A DNA stretch of 64,000 nucleotides, taken from assembly GCF_030540875.1 (NCBI RefSeq), contig NZ_JAUOEM010000005.1:248001-312000 (forward strand), given 5' to 3'. Each line of letters starts with the position of its first letter. The stretch's first letter is position 1. Source of the stretch: Flavivirga amylovorans (GTDB lineage Bacteria > Bacteroidota > Bacteroidia > Flavobacteriales > Flavobacteriaceae). The notes under the pieces were generated by a model, which had not been told where the DNA came from, did not search any database, and saw only the letters and a program-made list of their open reading frames with translations. Positions 41,604 through 60,174 of the stretch are shown in pieces. Position numbers and translations under genes: made by a program.

Positions 41604-41734
41604 CGTTTGCGTTAGGGATTGTAACGGCATCCTTTTTTATGTCAGTTCGAGTGTTTTGTGAAGTATGAGCAAAATGTATCGAGAACAAATAAAAAAGATA
41701 TAGTGGAAAGCCCGACCCTTGTGGTAACGCCCAA
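41604..41734 (+). ncRNA. Candidate structured RNA/repeat between Fe-S and NrfD genes
   Basis: Nested pairing is visible. GCGTTA (41609-41614) pairs with TAACGC (41725-41730), the TTTTTTAT stretch near 41640 with ATAAAAAA near 41690-41697, and GTTC near 41644 with GAAC near 41684. Single-stranded GC-rich blocks AGCCCGACCCTTG lie near the 3' end. The 257-bp gap separates two subunits that should be co-expressed. I recall similar segments between genes of other flavobacteria, but cannot check. It may be a structured RNA, an attenuator or a mobile repeat. Confidence 0.4.
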
Positions 41735-48902: not shown

Positions 48903-49073
48903 GACAAACCTATAACTATCAAATAATAGGAGTGGTTACATTAAAAATTGAATAAAAATCACGCTTTTTATTTTACGAATTTGCCATAAATCAATATTCA
49001 AAATTACCATGTTGTGAATTTGAATATTGATTTTTAGTTTTCTCTTAAAAGTGAATGTGGTATTTATTATTAT

Positions 49074-49103
49074 ACGTATTAATACTTATATTCGTGATAT
49101 CAC
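49074..49103 (+). promoter_or_regulatory. Promoter/operator region of the FNR-like gene
   Basis: ACGTATTAATACTT (49074-49087) is one mismatch from the AAGTA-N4-TACTT motif at the globin and nrtA promoters. It abuts a -7-like box TATATTCG (49087-49094), followed by a perfect 10-bp palindrome GTGATATCAC (49094-49103). Confidence 0.5.
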
Positions 49104-49131: not shown

Positions 49132-49890
49132 ATGCAGTCAACGTTTAAAAGCATAAATGAGGTAAAACAGAGAGCAAATCCGTTGTCTGGTTTAGCGTGC
49201 AATTTATGTGATAATACGAACTGTTTAATCAAAAAGAACCTGTCTACTTTAGAAAGCTCTAATTTCACGAATAAAAAGAACAATATCAAGTGTAAAAAAG
49301 GGCAGCAGTTCATCATTGAAGGTGCCCCTGTAAATGGCTTATTTTTTATTTTAAAAGGCACTGTAAAAGTCTTTCGAACAGGTATAAATGGAAGAGAACA
49401 AATCGTAAGGTTTGCCAAAGAAGGAGAAATTATCGGTCATCGTGGTTTTGGAACTGAAGAATACTATTCTATAGGTGCTATTGCATTGCAAGACACCGTT
49501 TTGTGTTATTTTTCAAAGAACGATTTACAAGAAGCGTTACTCGAAAACCCTAAGTTCACTTACGATATGATGCTATTTTATGCAGATGAACTTAATAGAA
49601 GTGAAAATAAAGTAAAATCCATTTCGCAAATGACTGTTCGAGAACGTGTTATTGATACCTTATTATATATCCATCGAAAATTTGGCCATTTAAAAGGCTT
49701 TTTAAACTTACCTTTAAGCCGGAGAGAGTATGCCGACTATGCTGGAACTACAGAAGAACAGGTTATTCGTGCATTTTCTGCACTTAAAAAGGAAAAGCTT
49801 ATTATAGCAAAAGGAAAGAAGATTGGTATAAACGATATTCCACTACTTAAAAAAGAGATTAGCGAGCATAATTACTTCTTGGACAGCTAG
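49132..49890 (+). CDS. FNR-like Crp family regulator with [4Fe-4S]-type cysteines
   Basis: 252 aa. Cys23-x2-Cys26-x4-Cys31 near the N-terminus and Cys125 in DTVLCYFSKNDLQ match the pattern of E. coli FNR (Cys20, 23, 29 and Cys122, the latter in the same strand). The cNMP-binding beta-roll is at about 55-135, the dimer helix at about 140-175 and the C-terminal winged helix at about 195-235 (SRREYADYAGTTEEQVIRAF). The recognition helix keeps Glu and Arg of the FNR E-xx-SR motif but has Ile in place of Ser. An O2-labile cluster controlling the Nap/Nrf genes is inferred; TGAT-N4-ATCA sites upstream of napD and nrfH suit it. Confidence 0.88.
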   Translation: MQSTFKSINEVKQRANPLSGLACNLCDNTNCLIKKNLSTLESSNFTNKKNNIKCKKGQQFIIEGAPVNGLFFILKGTVKVFRTGINGREQIVRFAKEGEIIGHRGFGTEEYYSIGAIALQDTVLCYFSKNDLQEALLENPKFTYDMMLFYADELNRSENKVKSISQMTVRERVIDTLLYIHRKFGHLKGFLNLPLSRREYADYAGTTEEQVIRAFSALKKEKLIIAKGKKIGINDIPLLKKEISEHNYFLDS

Positions 49891-50173: not shown

Positions 50174-50203
50174 TATTTTTGCCTTAAATAAGTACTAATA
50201 CTT
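50174..50203 (+). promoter_or_regulatory. Globin promoter with AAGTA-N4-TACTT operator
   Basis: The -7 box TATTTTTG (50174-50181) is followed after 8 bp by AAGTACTAATACTT (50190-50203). The nrtA promoter has the same arrangement and nearly the same flanks (GCCTTAAATA here, GCTTTAAATA there). The operator would cover the start of transcription. Confidence 0.65.
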
Positions 50204-50238
50204 AATTTTTATAAACACAAACCAAATACATAAGATTT

Positions 50239-50652
50239 ATGGAATCAACAACCATCACTCTAGTTCAAGAATCATTTGAAAAAGTAAGACCCATAGCCCC
50301 AACTGCTGCAAAAATATTTTACGAAAAACTTTTTGATTTAGATCCACAACTAAAACCATTATTCCCGAGTGATGAAGATGCTATGAAAACACAAGGAAAC
50401 AAATTGATGAGTATGCTCGGTGCAGCTGTAGCTGGCTTGAGTAACTTGGATGCATTAATTCCTATTTTAAAAGATTTAGGAAAAAGGCATATAGAATATA
50501 AAGTAGAAGCTTTTCATTACACGACTGTAGGTGAAGCATTATTGGGAACTCTTGAAGTTGGTTTGGGAGACGATTTTACTCCCGAAGTAAAAGATGCATG
50601 GGCAAGTGTATATGGTACAATGTCTAAAGTCATGATTGAAGCTGCTTATTAA
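50239..50652 (+). CDS. Single-domain bacterial globin (flavohaemoglobin-type)
   Basis: 137 aa, the size of a single globin domain such as Vitreoscilla Hb. It has TAAKIFYEKLFDLDPQLKPL (the B/C helix with the Phe-Tyr pair), a proximal His84 in GKRHIEYKVEAFHYTTVGEA and the G/H helix end. It lacks the FAD/NAD domain of Hmp. In the same cluster 52085-53113 encodes a ferredoxin-type oxidoreductase that could reduce it. A role in NO detoxification, NO being expected from nitrite handling, is inferred. Confidence 0.9.
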   Translation: MESTTITLVQESFEKVRPIAPTAAKIFYEKLFDLDPQLKPLFPSDEDAMKTQGNKLMSMLGAAVAGLSNLDALIPILKDLGKRHIEYKVEAFHYTTVGEALLGTLEVGLGDDFTPEVKDAWASVYGTMSKVMIEAAY

Positions 50653-50673
50653 TAACTAAAAAAAAACAGAAAT

Positions 50674-51483
50674 ATGAAAATTATTTACAAAACCATATTA
50701 CCATTAACATGTTTTATTTTAGTTTCATGTGGTGGAGTTCCAGAAGAAAAATCAGAAACAACAGGTATAGAAAATGCCTTTTCTGTAGAAGACGTATTAG
50801 AAATGGTAGCTAAAGAGAACGATGTTACAAGAACGCTCTATACAAAAGCCATAGTAGGCAAAGGTAAAAAGCAAGGGATGAAGTTTGACGAAGACTGGAG
50901 AAAGGATGATGTAGAAGCCGGACCATTACCAGCATTATTTTTAAGAGGTGTAGCAACGAGTATTAGAAAGAATCCCGTGCCTTTAGGCTTGTATTTAGGG
51001 TCTGATTTTCCGGTAAATGCAGCCAATAAATTTGAAGGAAAGCAGGCGGATTTATTTAAACAAATTAAAAAGGACCAAAAGCCACAATTTTTCTATGACG
51101 AAGAGCAAAAACTACATACTGCAATGTTTGCAGATTTAGCCAGTGCAGGAGCTTGTGTAAGTTGTCATAATGAACACCCTCAGACAACAAAATCAGATTG
51201 GAAATTAGGAGATGTTATGGGTGCTACGACATGGCAATACCCAAAAGATTCATTAACATACAAAGAAACTATAGCGGTTTTAAACTCTTATGCTAAGGGG
51301 ACTGTAGATATATACATGGAATATTTGGATGAGATTAAAGCCTTTAAGGAAAGCGAAAAGCCGGAAATAGGTAAAAAATGGCCAGCAGAAGGAAATTATT
51401 TGCCAACAGCTGAAGTTTTTCTTGATAGTGTTAAAAAGTTAGCATCTTATGAGACTATGAAACATCTTGTAGCAACGAAATAA
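50674..51483 (+). CDS. DUF3365 (Tll0287-like) haem lipoprotein
   Basis: 269 aa. The lipobox is at Cys19 (ILVSCGG). The family-like region spans about residues 35-200, with KNPVPLGLYLGSDFPVNAAN and FADLASAGACVSCHNEHPQT, the latter with one CxxCH haem motif (161-165), then GDVMGATTWQYP. Tll0287-type proteins are haem sensors or electron carriers. It lies 22 bp after the globin gene, probably in one operon. Its likely place is the outer leaflet of a membrane. Confidence 0.85.
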   Translation: MKIIYKTILPLTCFILVSCGGVPEEKSETTGIENAFSVEDVLEMVAKENDVTRTLYTKAIVGKGKKQGMKFDEDWRKDDVEAGPLPALFLRGVATSIRKNPVPLGLYLGSDFPVNAANKFEGKQADLFKQIKKDQKPQFFYDEEQKLHTAMFADLASAGACVSCHNEHPQTTKSDWKLGDVMGATTWQYPKDSLTYKETIAVLNSYAKGTVDIYMEYLDEIKAFKESEKPEIGKKWPAEGNYLPTAEVFLDSVKKLASYETMKHLVATK

Positions 51484-51597
51484 GTGAAGTTTAGTTTTTG
51501 ATTATTCAATTGTAACTCTGCTCATTCCTTATGCTTATGCTTCATAATTGTGATGAGCAAGTTGCTATTGTTTACCTTGAAACCATAGATAAAATTT

Positions 51598-52077
51598 ATG
51601 TTAATTAATAACAAGTCCTCTTTAATCGGATTAATTTTCTTAAGTGCTTTCTTTTTACAGTTTTTTTTGAAATTAGAATGGAATGGGTTACTTGAACTCC
51701 AGCAACAAGAAATGTATAAGCGCTGGTCTGGTCTGGTTTTGGCTTTGTTTATAGTCTTTCAATGGATACTTACATTAACTCGGATTATTAAAAGGCTTAG
51801 AAAATATGCTATGTCTATGCAGACAATACATAAGTGGTTAGGAGCCATTAGTCCCCTAGTCTTTTATATACACAGCATGTCTTTAGGGTATGGGTATCTG
51901 TTATTGCTGTCTTATGTATTCTTTTCGAATACATTATTGGGGTATTTTAATCTGGATGTTATAAAAAATAATAGCGATCTGTTATTCAAAGGCTGGATGA
52001 TTGTTCATGTAGCGTTATCCATAATAGTCACGATTATGATGGTATTTCATATAACCATTGTATTTTATTATAAATAG
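51598..52077 (+). CDS. Four-helix membrane protein, possible b-haem carrier
   Basis: 159 aa with four hydrophobic helices (about 9-27, 43-62, 77-110, 130-157). His residues sit within helices in spaced pairs: TIHKWLGAISPLVFYIHSM and IVHVALSIIVTIMMVFHITI. This spacing (about 13-14) is that of haem b ligation in small membrane cytochromes and ferric reductase-like domains. I do not recognise a family. It lies just upstream of and in the same direction as a reductase, so electron transfer across the membrane between the reductase and the pentaheme cytochrome is a reasonable guess. Confidence 0.6.
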   Translation: MLINNKSSLIGLIFLSAFFLQFFLKLEWNGLLELQQQEMYKRWSGLVLALFIVFQWILTLTRIIKRLRKYAMSMQTIHKWLGAISPLVFYIHSMSLGYGYLLLLSYVFFSNTLLGYFNLDVIKNNSDLLFKGWMIVHVALSIIVTIMMVFHITIVFYYK

Positions 52078-52084
52078 ATACCGT

Positions 52085-53113
52085 ATGAAACTACTAATAA
52101 AAGATATAATTAGAGAAACCGATGATGCTATCAGTTTGTGTTTCAAGAATGGAAACTTTTTCAAAAAATTAAAGTATAAACCAGGACAATTTTTAACCAT
52201 CCATATTCCTATTGATGCGGTTGTGCATAAACGTGCTTATTCGTTTAGTAGTAATCCGTATACCGATAAAGATTTAAAAATTACTATAAAACGTGTCGAG
52301 AAAGGACTGGTTTCAAACTTTGTTCATGATAATCTTCATGTAGGAGGTAAGGTAGTTGTTGACGATCCAGCAGGTTCTTTTTATGTTGAACCAGCCAGTA
52401 AACAAAAAAAGCAATATGTATTATTTGCAGGAGGTAGTGGAATTACCCCTATGTTTTCTATTATAAAATCAGTTTTAACAGAAGAAAAGGATTCAAATAT
52501 ATTATTGGTTTACGCAAATCAGAGCATGGAGTCTATTATTTTTCATGATGAAATAAAAGCATTAGAAAGCAAGTACCCTGATAATTTTTCTATTGAGCAT
52601 ATTATTTCTTCAAATAAGGAAGATAATAACAACTACTATGCAGGCTTAGTAACACATAAATTATTAAATAAAATATTTTCTAAACATTTATTGGCTTATG
52701 ATGATCATACCTATATGATTTGTGGCCCTTTTGGTTATATGGAGAAAATAAAAGAGATCTTAAAAGATAATGGTGTTACCAGAGAAAAAATTATGATCGA
52801 AGTTTTTAAAGCTCCAGTAGTAAAAGTTTCTGGTAAAGATCTTTTGAGTGATGTGACTTTAAAAGTTGAAGGAGAAGCCCATCAGATACAAGTAAGGGGA
52901 GACAAATCCATATTAGAGCAAGCTATGTCAGAAAGTATTATTATTCCATATTCATGTAGAGCAGGTATGTGCTCTTCTTGTAGAGCAAAATGTATATCGG
53001 GAGAAGTTATGATGACTGAAGGACATTTGTTGCCAGATAGCGATGTGGAAAACGGAGACATTCTCACTTGCATTAGTTATCCTGTAAGCGAGAAAGTAGT
53101 CATTGAAATATAA
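52085..53113 (+). CDS. NAD(P)H oxidoreductase with FAD and 2Fe-2S ferredoxin domains
   Basis: 342 aa from the ATG at 52085, which follows the previous stop by 7 bp. The FAD-binding domain has HKRAYSFSSNP (RxYS motif). The NAD(P)H domain has LFAGGSGITPMFSI and YMICGPFGYMEKI. The C-terminal plant-type ferredoxin domain (about 260-342) has CRAGMCSSCRAKC plus a later Cys in DILTCISYP. It is the PaaE/Hmp-reductase type. It could reduce the globin (as the reductase half of Hmp does) or the membrane protein before it. Confidence 0.92.
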   Translation: MKLLIKDIIRETDDAISLCFKNGNFFKKLKYKPGQFLTIHIPIDAVVHKRAYSFSSNPYTDKDLKITIKRVEKGLVSNFVHDNLHVGGKVVVDDPAGSFYVEPASKQKKQYVLFAGGSGITPMFSIIKSVLTEEKDSNILLVYANQSMESIIFHDEIKALESKYPDNFSIEHIISSNKEDNNNYYAGLVTHKLLNKIFSKHLLAYDDHTYMICGPFGYMEKIKEILKDNGVTREKIMIEVFKAPVVKVSGKDLLSDVTLKVEGEAHQIQVRGDKSILEQAMSESIIIPYSCRAGMCSSCRAKCISGEVMMTEGHLLPDSDVENGDILTCISYPVSEKVVIEI

Positions 53114-53134
53114 TTAAAAAATACCAGTTAGTGC

Positions 53135-53842
53135 ATGTTTAAGGTAAGTCCATTACGAAAAAGACAATTTTTAGGAGGGGTTATAGGTGTTATTTTGGGA
53201 ACTTCCATATTTTATATCTTAACTTTAAATAGCACTGAAGAATACATATCAATTGGCCCGATGAATACAGGACATCAAGACCTTTCCTGTTTTTCATGCC
53301 ACGCAGATGCTAAAGGAAATTTACTGCAACAAGTACAGTCTAATATATCACATACTTTTGGAGCCAGAGATAAAAGTGTAGATTTTGGAACTAAAGATGT
53401 TACTGTAGATAACTGTCTGCAATGTCATGACAGAGCCAATGATAGACATCCTACCCATCGATTTTCCGAACCAAGATTTAAAAAAGCGGTAAAACATATT
53501 GACGCGACCACTTGCATTACTTGCCATACAGAGCATCAAGAGGAACGCGTATCTGTAGCTTCAATTAATTACTGCATTAATTGCCACCAGGATTTAGAGG
53601 TAGAAAACGACCCATTAGACATATCTCATAAAAACCTAATTGCAAAAGAAGAATGGTTTACCTGTATACAATGTCATGATTTTCATGGTAACCACAAATA
53701 TGATGTTCCTGAAAAACTATCAGATACAATTCCTATGAAATCTATTCAAAACTATTTTGAAGGTGGTGCAGACCCTTATGGAACAAATAAAAAATACAGG
53801 GCTTTATCCCAAGAGGCGTGGTTAAAGACTTTAGATAAATAA
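53135..53842 (+). CDS. Membrane-anchored pentaheme cytochrome c
   Basis: 235 aa. An N-terminal anchor (about 12-31; FLGGVIGVILGTSIFYILTL) is followed by five CxxCH motifs at 52-56, 94-98, 127-131, 147-151 and 177-181. Spare His residues near each could serve as ligands. It resembles NapC/NrfH-type and cytochrome c3-like multihaem proteins only in general layout. It lies 21 bp after the reductase gene, so the two are probably co-transcribed. It may bring electrons into the periplasm from the reductase/membrane pair. Confidence 0.82.
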   Translation: MFKVSPLRKRQFLGGVIGVILGTSIFYILTLNSTEEYISIGPMNTGHQDLSCFSCHADAKGNLLQQVQSNISHTFGARDKSVDFGTKDVTVDNCLQCHDRANDRHPTHRFSEPRFKKAVKHIDATTCITCHTEHQEERVSVASINYCINCHQDLEVENDPLDISHKNLIAKEEWFTCIQCHDFHGNHKYDVPEKLSDTIPMKSIQNYFEGGADPYGTNKKYRALSQEAWLKTLDK

Positions 53843-54257
53843 AGTCATAAATATTATTCTCCTTTAATGTGAGTCGAAAGGTACCAAAAATTTCGCTATT
53901 TCAATTAGGTTTCGACTTTAGCCTGTCTTGAGTCGAGTCGAAAGGCTCAACCTGACAGAATAAATCAAACTGCTTTAAGTCAATAATTTACATGTGTACT
54001 TGTGTTAAACTTACGTTCGTTTATTATTTTCTGTATGCTTTCCTGTTAGAGACAAATAAATAGCATTAATGTTTGGCCTTTATTTTTATTAAAAACACAA
54101 ATACTGTTACTTTTTTATACCAATTACGTAGAGTGTTTAGTATCTCTTTTTAATATTTAATTATTTTAAAATCAGACTTTTATGATGATTTTATGTTTTT
54201 TTGCAGGTTTGACTATGTGAAAAAAGATGATTGCATATGTGTATTTGCATAAACTAT
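53843..54257. other. Intergenic region before nrtA, no gene seen
   Basis: About 415 bp without a supported reading frame. It contains short inverted copies of GTCGAAAGG / GTTTCGAC-type sequence (53875-53950), resembling other intergenic palindromic repeats in this window. Confidence 0.5.
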
Positions 54258-54302
54258 AAGTGTTAATACTTATATATTTGCTTTAAATAAGTATAAATAC
54301 TT
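54258..54302 (+). promoter_or_regulatory. nrtA promoter with two AAGT(A/G)-N4-TACTT operators
   Basis: AAGTGTTAATACTT (54258-54271) abuts the -7 box TATATTTG (54273-54280). AAGTATAAATACTT (54289-54302) follows after 8 bp. The downstream site has the same position as the one at the globin promoter. Confidence 0.65.
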
Positions 54303-54324
54303 AGTTAATTTAAAACTAAAAATT

Positions 54325-55719
54325 ATGAAATCTATAATTAAAAAGTCATCTTGGATTCTACCAGTAGTAGTTTTGCTATGCTCTTGCGGTAGTAAGGAAA
54401 AAAAGCAAACTTTAGCTGAAAACGTAACAGCTGAAGCTTCAAAAACAAAAACCCTTGAAATTGAAAAACCACAATTAACATTTGGCTTTATCAAACTAAC
54501 AGATATGGCACCTTTAGCGATTGCCAAAGAAAAAGGATTTTTTGAAGATGAAGGACTCTTTGTTTCAGTGGAAGCACAATCTAACTGGAAAAATGTATTA
54601 GATCGTGTCATTGATGGACAGTTGGATGGATCACACATGTTAGCTGGACAACCTATAGCAGCAGCTGCAGGGTTTGGTAGACAAGCAAAATTGGTAACGC
54701 CTTTTTCAATGGATCTTAATGGTAATGGTATTACTGTTTCGAATGATGTGTGGTCTAAAATGAAGTCAAATGTACCAAAAGGAGCAGATGGTAAACCTAT
54801 TCACCCTATTAAAGCAGATGCTTTAAAACCAGTTATTGAAGATTATAAAAACTCAGGAAAAGCCTTTAAAATGGGTATGGTATTTCCAGTATCTACGCAT
54901 AACTATGAAATAAGATATTGGTTAGCAGCAGCTGGTATTCATCCTGGTATGTATACTGCTGAAAATGTACAAGGGCAAATAGATGCAGACGTTTTATTAT
55001 CTGTAACACCACCGCCACAAATGCCAGCAACACTAGAAGCAGGTACTATTTATGGATATTGTGTTGGAGAGCCATGGAATCAACAAGCCGTATTTAAAGG
55101 GATTGGTGTGCCTGTAACTACAAATTATGATATCTGGAAAAACAACCCGGAGAAAGTATTTGTCATGACAAAGAAATTTATCGATGAGAACCCAAATACA
55201 GCAATAGCAGTGACTAAAGCTCTAATTAGAGCAGGGCAGTGGTTAGATGAACCAGGAAATAGAGCAGAGGCAGTTAAGATATTATCGATGTCTCAATATG
55301 TTGGTGCAGACGAAGCGGTATTAGCAAATTCTATGACAGGAACATTTGAGTTTGAAAAAGGAGACAAACGTGAGATGCCAGATTTTAATGTATTCTATAA
55401 GTACCATGCAACCTATCCTTTCTATTCTGATGGTATCTGGTTTTTAACTCAAATGAGAAGATGGGGACAAATACCAGAAGCTAAACCAGCCGAATGGTAT
55501 GCAGAAACTATCAAAGATGTATACCGACCAGATATCTGGAAAAAAGCGGCTGATCTTTTAGTTGAAGAAGGACATATTCCAGCAACTGATATCCCGAATA
55601 CTGATGGTTACAAACCAGCAACTACAGATTTTATAGATGGAACAGCTTACGATGCTAAAGATCCAATTTCATATATCAATAGTTTCTCTATAGGGAATAA
55701 AGATAAAGCAGTACAATAA
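54325..55719 (+). CDS. nrtA: Nitrate-type ABC transporter substrate-binding lipoprotein
   Basis: 464 aa. The lipobox is at Cys17-Cys19 ([11 protein letters not shown]). The NrtA/CmpA-like body runs from [20 protein letters not shown] through [40 protein letters not shown] and the end [18 protein letters not shown]. The ligand is nitrate, nitrite or bicarbonate in the family; nitrate is favoured by the cluster. Permease and two ATPases follow. Confidence 0.87.
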
Positions 55720-55868: not shown

Positions 55869-56975
55869 ATGAAACAAAGCATAACATTAGGAAAAGTAAC
55901 TAAATTTATGGGATTAGGTTTTTTAAGTACTTTAAAAGATCTATTTACTGGGAAGCTAGACAAAGAAGATTTTAAAAACTTCTTACGTAAGGTATTCGTA
56001 CCACTTGCTTCCATACTGTTATTTATCGGGCTATGGCATGTAGGTTCAAAATATTTATATAATAGAGAAGCCGATTTTAAAATTGAAAAAGCACTTACAG
56101 ACCAAGGTCCAGCAGCTGCAGAAGCTATGCGGGAATGTATTGCATCTGGCGATATAAGTTGTCAGCCCAATACACTACCATCACCTAGTCAGGTTTGGGA
56201 TTCTTATAAATCATTATTGAGAGATCATAATATCATTAGTGCAGATAAGGCAGCATTTATAGAGAAGACAGCCACATTAAATGCGAAGCGAATTGCTGAA
56301 GGTAAAGCACCCATAACCTATACTGGTAGACCGTCTTTTATAGATCAAATTATTATGAGTTTAAAAACAGTATTTGCTGGTTTTCTATTAGCTTTAATAA
56401 TAGCGGTTCCTATTGGAGTTCTTATAGGGTTAAGTCCTACTTTAAAAAGTGCTTTTAATTGGTTTGTTCAAATTTTTAAGCCCGTATCTCCAGTTGTCTG
56501 GTATCTGTTGGTATTTATGATCGTTAAAACGATCTTAATAGATTCCAATGGAGATAGCTCATTCATCATTTCATTTATAAGTGTTGGGTTATGTTCTATG
56601 TGGGCCACTTTAGTTAATACGGCTATGGGAGTATCATCTGTAGATAAAGATTATATAAATGTAGCTAAAGTTTTGAAATTAGGGCCTTTTCAAAAAGTGT
56701 TTAAAGTGATTTTACCGTCATCTTTGCCTTTAATATTTACAGGATTAAAGATTACATTGTCTGTAGCGTGGATGGTATTAATTGCTATTGAATTATTAGC
56801 GCAAAGTCCAGGTTTGGGACTCTTTGTTTGGGAAGAATTCCAAAATGGTGCCAATGATTCAAATTCTAAAATTATTGTGGCCATGTTTGTTATAGGAATT
56901 ATAGGTTTTTTATTAGACCGAATTATGTTGACTATTCAAAATGCGGTGTCGTTTAATAAAAATGATGGTATATAA
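55869..56975 (+). CDS. nrtB: Nitrate-type ABC transporter permease
   Basis: 368 aa, longer than the usual ~270. The first helix is near residue 45 (VPLASILLFIGLWHVGSKYL). An extracytoplasmic insert of about 85 residues follows, including CIASGDISCQPNTLPSPSQV. Five helices of the BPD_transp_1 domain come next, with the EAA-type loop GVSSVDKDYINVAKVLKLGP. The LPSSLPLIFTGLKI turn contacts the ATPase. The insert with two Cys is unusual and could contact NrtA. Confidence 0.88.
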   Translation: MKQSITLGKVTKFMGLGFLSTLKDLFTGKLDKEDFKNFLRKVFVPLASILLFIGLWHVGSKYLYNREADFKIEKALTDQGPAAAEAMRECIASGDISCQPNTLPSPSQVWDSYKSLLRDHNIISADKAAFIEKTATLNAKRIAEGKAPITYTGRPSFIDQIIMSLKTVFAGFLLALIIAVPIGVLIGLSPTLKSAFNWFVQIFKPVSPVVWYLLVFMIVKTILIDSNGDSSFIISFISVGLCSMWATLVNTAMGVSSVDKDYINVAKVLKLGPFQKVFKVILPSSLPLIFTGLKITLSVAWMVLIAIELLAQSPGLGLFVWEEFQNGANDSNSKIIVAMFVIGIIGFLLDRIMLTIQNAVSFNKNDGI

Positions 56976-57052: not shown

Positions 57053-57901
57053 ATGGCATATTTAGAATTAAATAATATATATAAGACTTACGGTCAAGGG
57101 GATCATGAAACTGAAGTGCTTTCGAATATAAATTTATCAATTGAAGAAGGAGAATTTGTTGCTATTGTGGGATTTACTGGAAGTGGAAAAACAACCTTGG
57201 TAAACCTCATTAATGGATTGTTGGAACCAACAAAGGGAGAGGTGTTATTTAAAGGCGAGCCTGTTTCTGGTACGAGCCATGAACGAGGCGTTATTTTTCA
57301 GAACTATTCATTATTGCCATGGTTAACAGTTGGTCAGAATGTTTTCATGGCAGTAAAAGAGGCCTTTCCAAAAAAAAGTAAAAAGGAATTGAACGAACTA
57401 GTAGCAGAGTACGTTGAAATGGTGAGTTTAACACCGGCAATTAATAAGCGTCCAAAGGAATTATCTGGAGGGATGCGTCAGCGTGTTGCCGTTGCTAGAG
57501 CTTTATCTATGAAACCAGAAATGATTATCATGGATGAACCTTTAGGAGCATTGGATGCCTTAACCAGAGGTAATCTTCAAGATGAAATTTTAAATATTTG
57601 GGGAAAAGATAAACGAACCGCGTTGTTAATTACTAACGATGTCGATGAAGGTCTATATATGGCAGACCGTATTATACCTTTAAAGCCAGGGCCAAATGCC
57701 ACTTTAGGGCCTGAATTTAAAATAGATATAGAACGCCCTAGAGACAAAACGGAGCTGAACGATAATATGAATTTTAAAGAAACCAGAAATGCTATTATAG
57801 AGTATTTAATGAATATTGGAGACGAAAGAAAATCACAGGCTAGAGAAGAATTTGTACTTCCAGATTTGAGTCCGAAGGATTTTGTTAATCAATTTAAATA
57901 A
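57053..57901 (+). CDS. nrtC: Nitrate-type ABC transporter ATPase, H-loop variant
   Basis: 282 aa. Walker [10 protein letters not shown] (40-48), signature LSGGM (137-141) and Walker [16 protein letters not shown] are present. The switch (H-loop) residue, His in nearly all ABC ATPases, is Asn195 here ([10 protein letters not shown]). The partner 57911-58741 has a normal H-loop His217 but a signature LSQGM. The heterodimer would therefore have one canonical and one non-canonical ATP site. No C-terminal NrtA-like domain is fused, unlike cyanobacterial NrtC. Confidence 0.88.
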
Positions 57902-57910
57902 AGGAATCAA

Positions 57911-58741
57911 ATGACTACTACTATAGAAAAAACAAAAACAGATAGTATTACTAATACCACTCTTTTTCCTTCATCTCAGGTGATGTTGGATCTAAAAAAG
58001 TTAAAGAAGGTATATCCAACACCAAAAGGCGATTATGTTGTTCTTGAAGATTTGAACCTCCAAATAAGAAAGGAAGAATTTGTGACTATTATCGGGCATT
58101 CAGGTTGTGGTAAAACAACCATGCTTTCAATGATTGCTGGTCTTAATGCCATTTCTGGGGGTAACATTTCTGTATTAGGGAAACATATAAAAGGACCAGG
58201 ACCAGATAGGGGCGTTATTTTTCAATCACCTAGCTTAATGCCATGGATGACGTCTCTTCAAAATGTATTATTAGGCGTTAATCAAGTTTTTCCACATGCT
58301 ACGAAATCTCAAAGAAATGATATTGCGAAATACTATTTACAAAAGGTAGGGTTAGAGGACGCCTTTAATAAAAAAGCATCGGAATTATCTCAAGGCATGC
58401 AGCAACGTGTTGGGATAGCCAGAGCGTTTGCTATAAAACCAAAAGTGTTATTGCTGGATGAACCTTTTGGGATGTTAGATTCTTTAACAAGAGGGGAGCT
58501 TCAGGATATTTTAATTGAAATATGGAACAAAGAAAAAATTACTGCTGTCATGATTACGCATGATGTTGATGAAGCTATTTTTTTAGCAGATCGTGTCGTG
58601 ATGATGACCAGTGGGCCAAAAGCTAAAATAGGTGATATTTTAAATATTGATTTTGAAAGACCAAGAACGCGTAAAACCGTTTTAGAACATGAAGACTATT
58701 ATAAGTACAGAAAACATTTAATCGATTTTTTAGAACATTAA
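57911..58741 (+). CDS. nrtD: Nitrate-type ABC transporter ATPase, second subunit
   Basis: 276 aa. Walker A GHSGCGKTT (62-70), signature LSQGM (159-163), Walker B LLLDEPFGMLDSLTR and H-loop MITHDVDEA with His217 are present. It resembles the NrtD group, where the Gly of the signature is often replaced. The start is 9 bp after nrtC, with a possible Shine-Dalgarno AAGGAA. A ~30-residue N-terminal extension precedes the ABC core. Confidence 0.9.
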   Translation: MTTTIEKTKTDSITNTTLFPSSQVMLDLKKLKKVYPTPKGDYVVLEDLNLQIRKEEFVTIIGHSGCGKTTMLSMIAGLNAISGGNISVLGKHIKGPGPDRGVIFQSPSLMPWMTSLQNVLLGVNQVFPHATKSQRNDIAKYYLQKVGLEDAFNKKASELSQGMQQRVGIARAFAIKPKVLLLDEPFGMLDSLTRGELQDILIEIWNKEKITAVMITHDVDEAIFLADRVVMMTSGPKAKIGDILNIDFERPRTRKTVLEHEDYYKYRKHLIDFLEH

Positions 58742-58893: not shown

Positions 58894-60174
58894 ATGAAAA
58901 AACAATATGTAATATTGGGGTTATTACTAGCAGGGTGCTTAAATTTTGCACAAGCGCAATTTACTTTAGATGGTGAATTTCGTCCACGTACAGAATATCG
59001 TAACGGTTTTGGAAGCCTTATAGCTGACGATGCAGATGCTGGTTATGGTATCTCAACCCGTATACGTTTAAATGCTGGGTATTCAGTAGATGCTTATAAG
59101 TTTTATGTGAGCTTTCAGGATATTTTGGTTTGGGGAGAAAATAGACAGATTCTACCTTACGATCAGAATAACTCGTTTGCAGTTTTTCAAGCTTGGGCAG
59201 AAATTAATTTCGGATCTGGATGGTCAACAAAGTTAGGACGTCAGGTGTTGTCTTATGACGATCAGCGTATTCTTGGGGGATTAGACTGGGCACAACAGGG
59301 ACGTAACCACGATGCGGCGTTGATAAAATATAAAAAGAACAAATTCTTAATAGATGTTGCATTCGCATTTAACCAGGATTACTCTAACCCAACAGGTTTT
59401 CAGTCAGTCGGAACAGCGTATAACACTACAGGTTTCTTTTCATATAAAACCATGCAGTATGCCTATATAAAACAAGCTTGGGAAAACTTTTCAGGTAGTT
59501 TGCTATTAATGAATAATGGTTTCCAGGAATTTGATACAAGTAATGAACCTGATGGTGTGAGTAACCTTCAAACGTTAGGAACTCATTTAAACTACGGACA
59601 AGGGAGTTTTGCGGTTGCTGCTAATGCATTTGTACAAACCGGTAAAAGACAAAATGACATAGATGTAAAAGGCGCGTATCTTTTAGGTTTGGATCTAACA
59701 TACAAAGCGTCTGATAAGGTTCAATTAGGAGCAGGTGTGGAACTTATTAGTGGTAATGATGCTGATCCTGGAGAAACAGGCGCGTTCTTTCCTTTGTATG
59801 GTACCAATCATAAATTTAATGGACTTATGGATTATTTTTACGTAGGGAACCATGGCAACTCTATCGGTTTATTTGATGTTCACGCAAGTGCGAACTTTAA
59901 ATTCAATAAAACTTCTAGCCTGATGGTTAAAGCCTTAAATTTTAGCGGAGATAAAGAGTTGCCTAGCGGTGAGAAATCATTAGGAACAGAAATTGATTTG
60001 GTTTTCAAAAAGGAATTTAAAGGGTATGCTTTAGTAGCTGGATATTCACATATGTTCCCTTCAGATGGGATGTATGAGTTAAAAGGTATTACAGAAGATG
60101 CTGCATCAGATACACAAAATTGGGCTTGGGCTATGTTAGTGCTAAAACCTAAATTTTTAAATGGTAAGAAATAG
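58894..60174 (+). CDS. Outer-membrane porin (alginate-export-like)
   Basis: 426 aa. A signal peptide (MKKQYVILGLLLAGCLNFAQ) then amphipathic beta strands of a barrel: FTLDGEFRPRTEYRNGFGSL, GYGISTRIRLNAGYS, WSTKLGRQVLSYDDQRILGG and a terminal strand. The 'RPRTEYRNGFG' and 'GRQxLxYDDQRxLGG' motifs are of the alginate_exp/OprD-like family. It follows nrtD by 150 bp with its own promoter. Passage of nitrate/nitrite into the periplasm is inferred from its place. Confidence 0.82.
   Translation: MKKQYVILGLLLAGCLNFAQAQFTLDGEFRPRTEYRNGFGSLIADDADAGYGISTRIRLNAGYSVDAYKFYVSFQDILVWGENRQILPYDQNNSFAVFQAWAEINFGSGWSTKLGRQVLSYDDQRILGGLDWAQQGRNHDAALIKYKKNKFLIDVAFAFNQDYSNPTGFQSVGTAYNTTGFFSYKTMQYAYIKQAWENFSGSLLLMNNGFQEFDTSNEPDGVSNLQTLGTHLNYGQGSFAVAANAFVQTGKRQNDIDVKGAYLLGLDLTYKASDKVQLGAGVELISGNDADPGETGAFFPLYGTNHKFNGLMDYFYVGNHGNSIGLFDVHASANFKFNKTSSLMVKALNFSGDKELPSGEKSLGTEIDLVFKKEFKGYALVAGYSHMFPSDGMYELKGITEDAASDTQNWAWAMLVLKPKFLNGKK

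Follow-up and report, generated by a model that had tools for sequence, protein, structure and literature searches.

The 64,000-nucleotide stretch of Flavivirga amylovorans DNA analysed here, referred to as the window (contig NZ_JAUOEM010000005.1, positions 248,001 to 312,000), carries a block of five genes on the + strand between positions 50239 and 53842. A first-pass annotation, made from the sequence alone, had grouped a globin, a haem lipoprotein, a membrane protein, a reductase, and a pentahaem cytochrome into one set, and all five genes were found, four of them backed by Pfam matches and the membrane protein by a sub-threshold one. The block sits within the nitrate-uptake gene cluster of some marine flavobacteria, where it appears to combine an NO-handling globin with an electron wire that leads from the cell interior to haem proteins beyond the inner membrane. 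The gene products, with the evidence for each, are as follows.

50239..50652, + strand: GLB, single-domain globin of the flavohaemoglobin type (Pfam Globin, E value 6.1e-19)
50674..51483, + strand: HEM, Tll0287-like (DUF3365, sCache_heme) lipoprotein with one c-type haem site (Pfam Tll0287-like, CXXCH)
51598..52077, + strand: MEM, five-helix membrane protein of 159 amino acids, probable bis-haem b cytochrome (His conservation, AlphaFold2 model, weak Ferric_reduct match)
52085..53113, + strand: RED, nicotinamide adenine dinucleotide (phosphate) [NAD(P)H] reductase with flavin adenine dinucleotide (FAD), NAD, and plant-type 2Fe-2S domains (Pfam)
53135..53842, + strand: CYT5, pentahaem cytochrome c with an N-terminal membrane anchor (five CXXCH; Pfam Cytochrom_c3_2, E value 9.4e-8)

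The intergenic gaps are, in this order, 21, 114, 7, and 21 base pairs (bp). The start of RED is placed at the ATG at 52085 and not at the TTG at 52058, with a methionine at the ATG in all 55 aligned rows. A close relative is Flavivirga rizhaonensis (locus L025; L-numbers stand for loci and G-numbers for genomes), showing 93 to 100% protein identity across 15 genes of the window.

A scan of the genome collection with MEM as the query, which is silent on loci lacking MEM, yielded 32 loci, and 48 distinct loci once further Flavobacteriaceae genomes were included. All 32 loci of the collection hold the five genes in identical order and on the same strand, with CYT5 being cut at the contig end in L055. 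The fetched locus shows all five genes in order in 46 of the 48 distinct loci; the short locus of G248 ends before CYT5, which is seen in L063, bringing the total to 47, and the sole exception is G229, where the globin is absent and RED and CYT5 are fused. The order is also kept in L021, with 52 to 59% identity in MEM, RED, and CYT5, and in L022 and L023, where the identity of the same three proteins goes down to 51 to 55% and the neighbours are rearranged. An order kept in 47 of 48 loci, including such divergent ones with rearranged neighbours, argues that the arrangement is not due to chance, and it bears out the expectation, set earlier as a test of a joint function, that the five genes stay together in related genomes. 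Seven loci are the same DNA as others, and the row counts given here for RED (55), the regulator (72), and the globin (56) include some genomes twice. In G177, the block is directly followed by ccsBA-like genes for cytochrome c biogenesis, which are split into two pieces (L060:12300-15000).

The membrane protein MEM was expected to conserve its spaced His residues, and it does: H78, H92, H137, and H151 are invariant in all 36 aligned sequences and form two HX13H pairs (H78/H92 and H137/H151). The AlphaFold2 model (predicted local distance difference test score, pLDDT, 88.9) shows five long helices (residues 6-24, 38-60, 65-92, 99-116, and 127-157) instead of the four first proposed, placing the His pairs on the modelled helices 65-92 and 127-157. 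Going by sequence and model, MEM seems to share the two His pairs on two helices that mark the Ferric reductase domain/NOX superfamily. Ferric_reduct (PF01794) is the only Pfam family found for the window protein, and it matches 35 of the 36 members with a best E value of 3.9e-5, compared to just three members matching DUF4405 (best E value, 0.35). Sequence searches of the PDB with MEM, HEM, and RED returned nothing or chance matches, where RED was searched only at an E value of 1e-20.

NOX2 and SpNOX have four conserved His residues in the membrane domain, as MEM does (PMC5676040). SpNOX and MsrQ/Fre, a split NOX-like pair, further resemble the block in that a cytosolic NAD(P)H flavin reductase passes electrons to a membrane haem protein (PMC5676040). 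MEM differs from them in having no detectable similarity to MsrQ and five modelled long helices rather than six, and the block differs in its 2Fe-2S domain on RED and in its exit through a multihaem cytochrome c, which takes the place of MsrP or O2. DUF4405, PepSY, and FezC are likewise conserved-His membrane proteins that bind haem b and are proposed as transmembrane electron carriers, but their partners are flavinylated proteins, unlike those of the block (PMC11334425). MEM is probably a conduit with two putative haems b that works like a ferric reductase or NOX-type protein, and is at most a candidate member of that family.

The reductase RED has FAD_binding_6, NAD_binding_1, and Fer2 domains according to Pfam, and C291, C296, C299, and C329 are kept in 55 of 55 aligned rows. 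Two reductase types were rejected for it, as RED scores 247.7 bits for PaaE against a curated cut-off of 420.8, and 174.7 bits for the Hcr-type NADH oxidoreductase PRK10684 against a cut-off of 383.

Two gene fusions indicate which proteins work together. In G229, a member of the family, RED and CYT5 form one chain of 571 amino acids with a hydrophobic stretch in between, adjoining HEM and MEM, and this block contains no globin gene. Identity in G229 is 42 to 49% in MEM, HEM, and CYT5, and 31% in RED; its HEM, read from a GTG start, shows by eye a hydrophobic N-terminal stretch without a lipobox Cys. In G587, which belongs to a different family within the phylum, the fusion joins a NirB-type NAD(P)H/FAD/BFD-2Fe-2S reductase to a membrane domain that has two HX13H pairs at its end. 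It is followed by a gene for a decahaem protein, in whose first half the haem sites of CYT5 are retained along with the five partner His residues, and then by a gene for a HEM homologue (hhalign, 99%). A second genome of the same genus, G747, holds the same decahaem and HEM genes, and its contig ends within the fused gene, of which the C-terminal part is present. Within the order of G587, a HEM match is found in 2 of 114 genomes. The decahaem cytochrome at L064:10170-11495 joins a CYT5-like half to a second pentahaem half that is of a different type.

A membrane haem protein, a multihaem cytochrome c, and HEM thus recur as a set with two unrelated NAD(P)H reductases, and fusions in two distant genomes suggest that the parts are tied into one route. 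This comparison of two reductases is, at the level of sequence, the strongest evidence for a direction from NAD(P)H to the periplasm. Together with the invariant His residues of MEM, both fusions argue for the joint function that was proposed at the outset, as well as for its more specific form, in which electrons from NAD(P)H would cross the membrane to periplasmic cytochromes.

The globin residues Y28, Q52, H84, and Y94 are kept in 55 of 56 rows and align with Tyr29, Gln53, His85, and Tyr95 of E. coli Hmp. The first three correspond to Tyr B10, Gln E7, and His F8, and the residues in question have a catalytic role in Hmp. Among the solved relatives of GLB are flavohaemoglobins, the Hell's Gate globin type, and Vitreoscilla haemoglobin. 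No signal peptide was recognised in GLB by eye. In the deep-branching loci L022, L023, and L055, the globin frame opens with an amphipathic-looking N-terminal extension, which might hold the protein at the membrane. L055 additionally encodes a second globin (L055:8190-8594), 36% identical and just before the main one, which is without the proximal His and the distal Gln and may not bind haem in the usual way.

The globin and the reductase were initially described as a flavohaemoglobin in pieces, which is half right. The likeness to Hmp lies in the globin residues and in the FAD/NAD domains, RED aligning with the reductase part of Hmp with 29% identity over 216 residues. Hmp is one chain, whereas GLB and RED are separate reading frames in the window and in the examined loci holding both; RED furthermore has a ferredoxin domain, which is absent from Hmp, and its fusion partner in the globin-free G229 block is a cytochrome. 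One could still read GLB and RED as a split flavohaemoglobin, with the membrane and c-haem genes forming a separate pathway that is adjacent by chance. A haemoglobin and flavoprotein pair in Bradyrhizobium is proposed to work in this way (PMC4724949), and G213 and G180 have the globin by itself next to nrt or nasC genes. The RED-CYT5 fusion, the fusion of a different reductase to a MEM-like domain in G587, and the presence of the five genes together in 47 of 48 loci speak against a chance neighbourhood, and we regard this explanation as unlikely.

The cytochrome CYT5 contains, besides its five CXXCH motifs, five further His residues (H47, H105, H134, H165, and H184) that never vary across the full-length rows (32 of 32) or in the two distant homologues. 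With this additional His for every haem, all five could have bis-His ligation, and the sequence points to a role in electron transfer and not in catalysis. A catalytic pentahaem cytochrome like NrfA is unlikely, since each haem can have a second invariant His.

The lipoprotein HEM matches the Pfam family Tll0287-like with an E value of 2.5e-7 (31.7 bits; cut-off, 24.1) and has a lipobox-like N-terminus and one CXXCH motif, kept in 18 of 18 rows. This family, DUF3365/Tll0287, was renamed sCache_heme in a 2026 preprint, in which a signalling-associated member without the axial Cys was tested and binds NO (nitric oxide), while a stand-alone member with the axial Cys acts as a redox protein (PMC12889525). 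The authors conclude that stand-alone sCache_heme domains have redox-related roles, and the redox-type members with the axial Cys are Tll0287 and a P. putida protein (PMC12889525). HEM shares the family match and the CXXCH motif with these proteins, but differs from Tll0287 in lacking the axial Cys, in having a C-terminal extension, and in lying in a transmembrane redox operon. Apart from the lipobox and the CXXCH motif, the 18 HEM rows conserve no Cys, and the axial Cys is also absent from the HEM homologue domain of G587. The sixth haem position of HEM may therefore be open or weakly held.

An open site on HEM gives rise to a tentative alternative, which we consider less likely than not: the unit might be a NAD(P)H-driven periplasmic system that reduces NO or another nitrogen oxide, in which a split, NOX-like conduit in the membrane and the bis-His pentahaem wire would power HEM. 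If true, this would give stand-alone sCache_heme proteins an enzymatic terminus, and the reducing system and the cytosolic globin would clear both compartments, forming a cassette that nitrate-assimilating genomes can exchange. The operon of G587 and G747 would then be the same design with an unrelated reductase.

Downstream of the block lies a set of nitrate-uptake genes:

54325..55719, + strand: nrtA-type nitrate-binding lipoprotein (Pfam NMT1_2, E value 1.8e-98)
55869..56975, + strand: nrtB-type permease (NCBIfam ntrB, E value 1.7e-41, below its cut-off)
57053..57901, + strand: nrtC-type ABC ATPase (position, homologues in 28 of 32 loci)
57911..58741, + strand: nrtD-type ABC ATPase (position, homologues in 28 of 32 loci)
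58894..60174, + strand: outer-membrane porin-like protein, Alginate_exp (Pfam PF13372, E value 1.2e-11; 28 of 32 loci)

The Alginate_exp-type porin linked to nrtABCD may be a nitrate porin. MEM is found in 24 of 299 Flavobacteriaceae genomes, and all 24 are among the 54 with nrtA (Fisher p, 9e-21); counted by genus, 20 lie within the 46 of 236 with nrtA (p, 1e-16), neither value being corrected for descent. Within about 10 kilobases (kb) of the block, nrtA is present in 29 of the 32 loci and a Crp/FNR regulator gene also in 29, compared to 11 loci with Nap/Nrf-type genes (napA in 4, nrfA in 5). As in Bradyrhizobium, a single-domain globin and a flavoprotein are thus co-located with nitrate transporter genes.

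Among relatives, the block occurs sporadically. We mapped its presence on an nrtA tree of 48 rows, 18 of them with the block, which omits six of the 24 block-bearing genomes, contains one very long row (L085), and counts G229 as positive, though its block lies elsewhere in the genome. This tree requires at least 14 changes of the block label, of which well-supported branches force 5 or more, and the clustering of the label does not exceed that of shuffled labels (mean, 14.7).

The regulator gene upstream of the block and four operator-like dyads point to a common regulation of the block and the nrt genes:

49132..49890, + strand: Crp/FNR-family regulator with an FNR-like Cys set (Pfam cNMP_binding and HTH_Crp_2)
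49073..49088: operator-like dyad TACGTATTAATACTTA with one mismatch, preceding the regulator gene
50189..50204: operator-like dyad TAAGTA-N4-TACTTA, preceding the globin gene
54257..54272: operator-like dyad with one mismatch, first member of a pair preceding nrtA
54288..54303: perfect operator-like dyad, second member of the pair preceding nrtA

In the regulator, C23, C26, and C31 are each kept in 70 of 72 rows and C125 in 66, a set that we take to resemble the one in FNR. The dyad upstream of the globin was compared over 33 regions, the window and the 32 loci: it is perfect in 24, has at most one mismatch in 28, and at most two in 32, where base shuffles give 0, 0.18, and 2.2 of 33. In those 32 regions it begins 42 to 63 bp before the ATG (50 bp in the window), and the best dyad before the other four block genes of the window has four mismatches. 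Window sites with at most two mismatches are at chance level (13 against 8.9 expected), and weight is placed only on sites with no or one mismatch and on the comparison across loci. Of the four window dyads of this quality, one precedes the regulator gene, one the globin, and two nrtA, and none was found near nap or nrf in the window. Elsewhere in the genome, a 16-mer identical to the perfect nrtA dyad is found some 30 bp ahead of the narK open frame, with nasC coming next; of six perfect TAAGTA-N4-TACTTA sites in the genome, three precede the block, nrtA, and narK-nasC. Scans for sigma-70 promoters and terminators stayed below the shuffle means. The spacing of the dyad presumably fits a Crp/FNR-type site, which makes the adjacent FNR-like protein its likely reader, and we predict it to be the probable regulator of the block and nrtABCD.

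These results bear on the NO source that was suggested first, Nap/Nrf. For the globin part, NO detoxification is plausible, as the Hmp-aligned residues are kept, but NO made by Nap/Nrf as the reason for the block is not supported, with Nap/Nrf-type genes near 11 of 32 loci against nrtA near 29, and with an operator sequence common to the block, nrtABCD, and narK-nasC. Nap/Nrf as the main partner was rejected on genome linkage, operator sites, and this proximity count. An Rfam Flavo-1 RNA (window positions 41606-41721; 52 bits, cut-off 42) lies between the ferredoxin-type and nrfD-type genes of the Nap/Nrf cluster.

Apart from NO, the unit could be a donor or redox valve for other periplasmic acceptors, with HEM as a plain carrier; Nap, Nrf, thiol or methionine repair, and the disposal of excess reductant come into question. 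A stand-alone sCache_heme protein looks like a redox protein (PMC12889525), MsrQ, which Fre is proposed to feed, offers a parallel as the supplier of a repair enzyme in the periplasm (PMC5676040), and the 11 loci with Nap/Nrf-type genes nearby fit as well. We find this reading doubtful, because the operator and the genome linkage point to nitrate assimilation, 21 of 32 loci are without a Nap/Nrf-type gene within about 10 kb, and the redox-type Tll0287 and P. putida proteins have the axial Cys (PMC12889525) that HEM lacks.

The regulator gene next to the block also suggests that HEM may be a periplasmic NO or redox sensor, whose redox state would be set by the other genes, in line with the missing axial Cys that HEM shares with the NO-binding, signalling-associated sCache_heme protein (PMC12889525). 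However, HEM looks like a lipoprotein and has no signalling domain recognised by Pfam, and 25 of 30 block-free nrtA loci also have the regulator gene, which is the direct neighbour of nrtA, among the genes searched, in 22 of 30 nrtA loci without MEM. A sensor role appears quite improbable to us.

A further possibility is that RED supplies electrons to the assimilatory nitrate reductase NasC, the role suggested for Flp in Bradyrhizobium, where growth on nitrate requires flp (PMC4724949). The linkage of the block to nrt and, in some loci, to nasC is compatible with this. Whether or not they carry the block, 53 of the 54 genomes with nrtA have a NasC-type match, whose open frame spans about 1170 to 1220 amino acids and, where examined (L034 and the window genome), carries its own NirB-like FAD/NAD domain, making RED a very unlikely donor. 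The fused nitrate reductase (1173 amino acids; L034:2689-7637 and G000:C1:1130462-1135410) is followed in both genomes by a protein of 480 to 490 amino acids, which in L034 contains a nitrite/sulfite reductase ferredoxin-like half domain and a rubredoxin domain. A flavohaemoglobin scores above the curated cut-off in just 2 of the 54 nrtA genomes.

Taken together, we propose that RED, MEM, CYT5, and HEM would constitute one inner-membrane redox unit. RED would take electrons from NAD(P)H in the cytosol, passing them through FAD and then 2Fe-2S, and MEM would carry them over the membrane via two haems b, placed close to its two faces. From there CYT5, which has its anchor in this membrane too, would relay them along five bis-His haems c to HEM, the c-haem lipoprotein of the sCache_heme family, as the putative end on the periplasmic side. 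The globin would be the cytosolic companion, most likely an NO dioxygenase able to accept electrons from RED. The block would be made as part of a nitrate-assimilation regulon under the FNR-like regulator, and would most likely guard nitrate-assimilating cells against NO and related species in both compartments. The order of the genes, the invariant ligands, the fusions, the linkage, and the common operator sequence were observed directly; from them we infer the haem loading, the direction of flow, the formation of a complex, the identity of the protein that binds the operator, and, with odds that seem to us only somewhat better than even, NO as the purpose. We hold the quinone-independent transmembrane route from NAD(P)H over RED, MEM, and CYT5 to HEM to be the best-supported part and consider it likely, and we assign the whole explanation a probability of roughly 0.5 (0.52).

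Several observations weigh against this explanation. Regarding MEM, the window protein matches Ferric_reduct below the curated cut-off (E value, 0.0055; 17.2 bits against 28), the fold has no match in the PDB at an E value of at most 0.001 (Foldseek), with no ferric reductase or NOX among the 49 matches listed, and hhalign detects no similarity to E. coli MsrQ and YodB. The hhalign comparison with the G587 membrane domain brings the four His residues into register with a probability of only 3.5%. The HEM structure model is mediocre (pLDDT, 72), and its search against PDB structures gave nothing significant; the HEM profile, run over 395 Bacteroidota genomes, reached an E value of 1e-8 only in G000 and G587 among the candidates scored per genome, and says little on distribution. 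In GLB, the position of the Glu that we take to complete the proximal triad of Hmp is not conserved (E in 21, K in 20, and D in 12 of 56 rows), and the tie of the globin to the membrane branch looks looser, as the globin is absent in G229 and alone in G213 and G180. MEM is missing from 30 of the 54 nrtA genomes, showing that nitrate assimilation in itself can do without the block, and the block is not seen between the regulator and nrtA in, for example, L042, L044, L051, L055, G002, G177, G237, and G229. The degenerate dyad is not enriched genome-wide, with 14 sites against 17 for the reversed control.

The nearest known system is the Bjgb-Flp pair of Bradyrhizobium, without the transmembrane branch. 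There, NasC makes NO, which is countered by a single-domain haemoglobin and a separate NAD(P)H flavoprotein encoded in the narK-bjgb-flp-nasC operon (PMC4724949). The setting is similar in nitrate assimilation, an NrtABC-type transporter, NarK, and a proposed NO detoxification, but the operon differs in its NasS-NasT regulation and in having nasC within it, and the available text names no transmembrane cytochrome b, pentahaem cytochrome, or sCache_heme lipoprotein (PMC4724949). The first-pass annotation knew of no described system with this composition, which holds for the transmembrane branch, as we found no description of it, and not for the globin and flavoprotein nitrate operon. Our literature search, covering titles and the beginnings of abstracts, returned no description of this gene set or its transmembrane branch and no paper combining DUF3365 with a globin.

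The close relatives with or without the block, mostly at the same site, make natural near-isogenic comparisons possible. The block would represent a compact and testable path for electrons from NAD(P)H to c-haems in the periplasm that requires no quinone and whose partners are backed by gene fusions, and it would provide an operon setting for stand-alone sCache_heme proteins, whose role is left open by the one paper found that is devoted to them (PMC12889525). The block further suggests that marine flavobacteria assimilating nitrate deal with NO on either side of their inner membrane.

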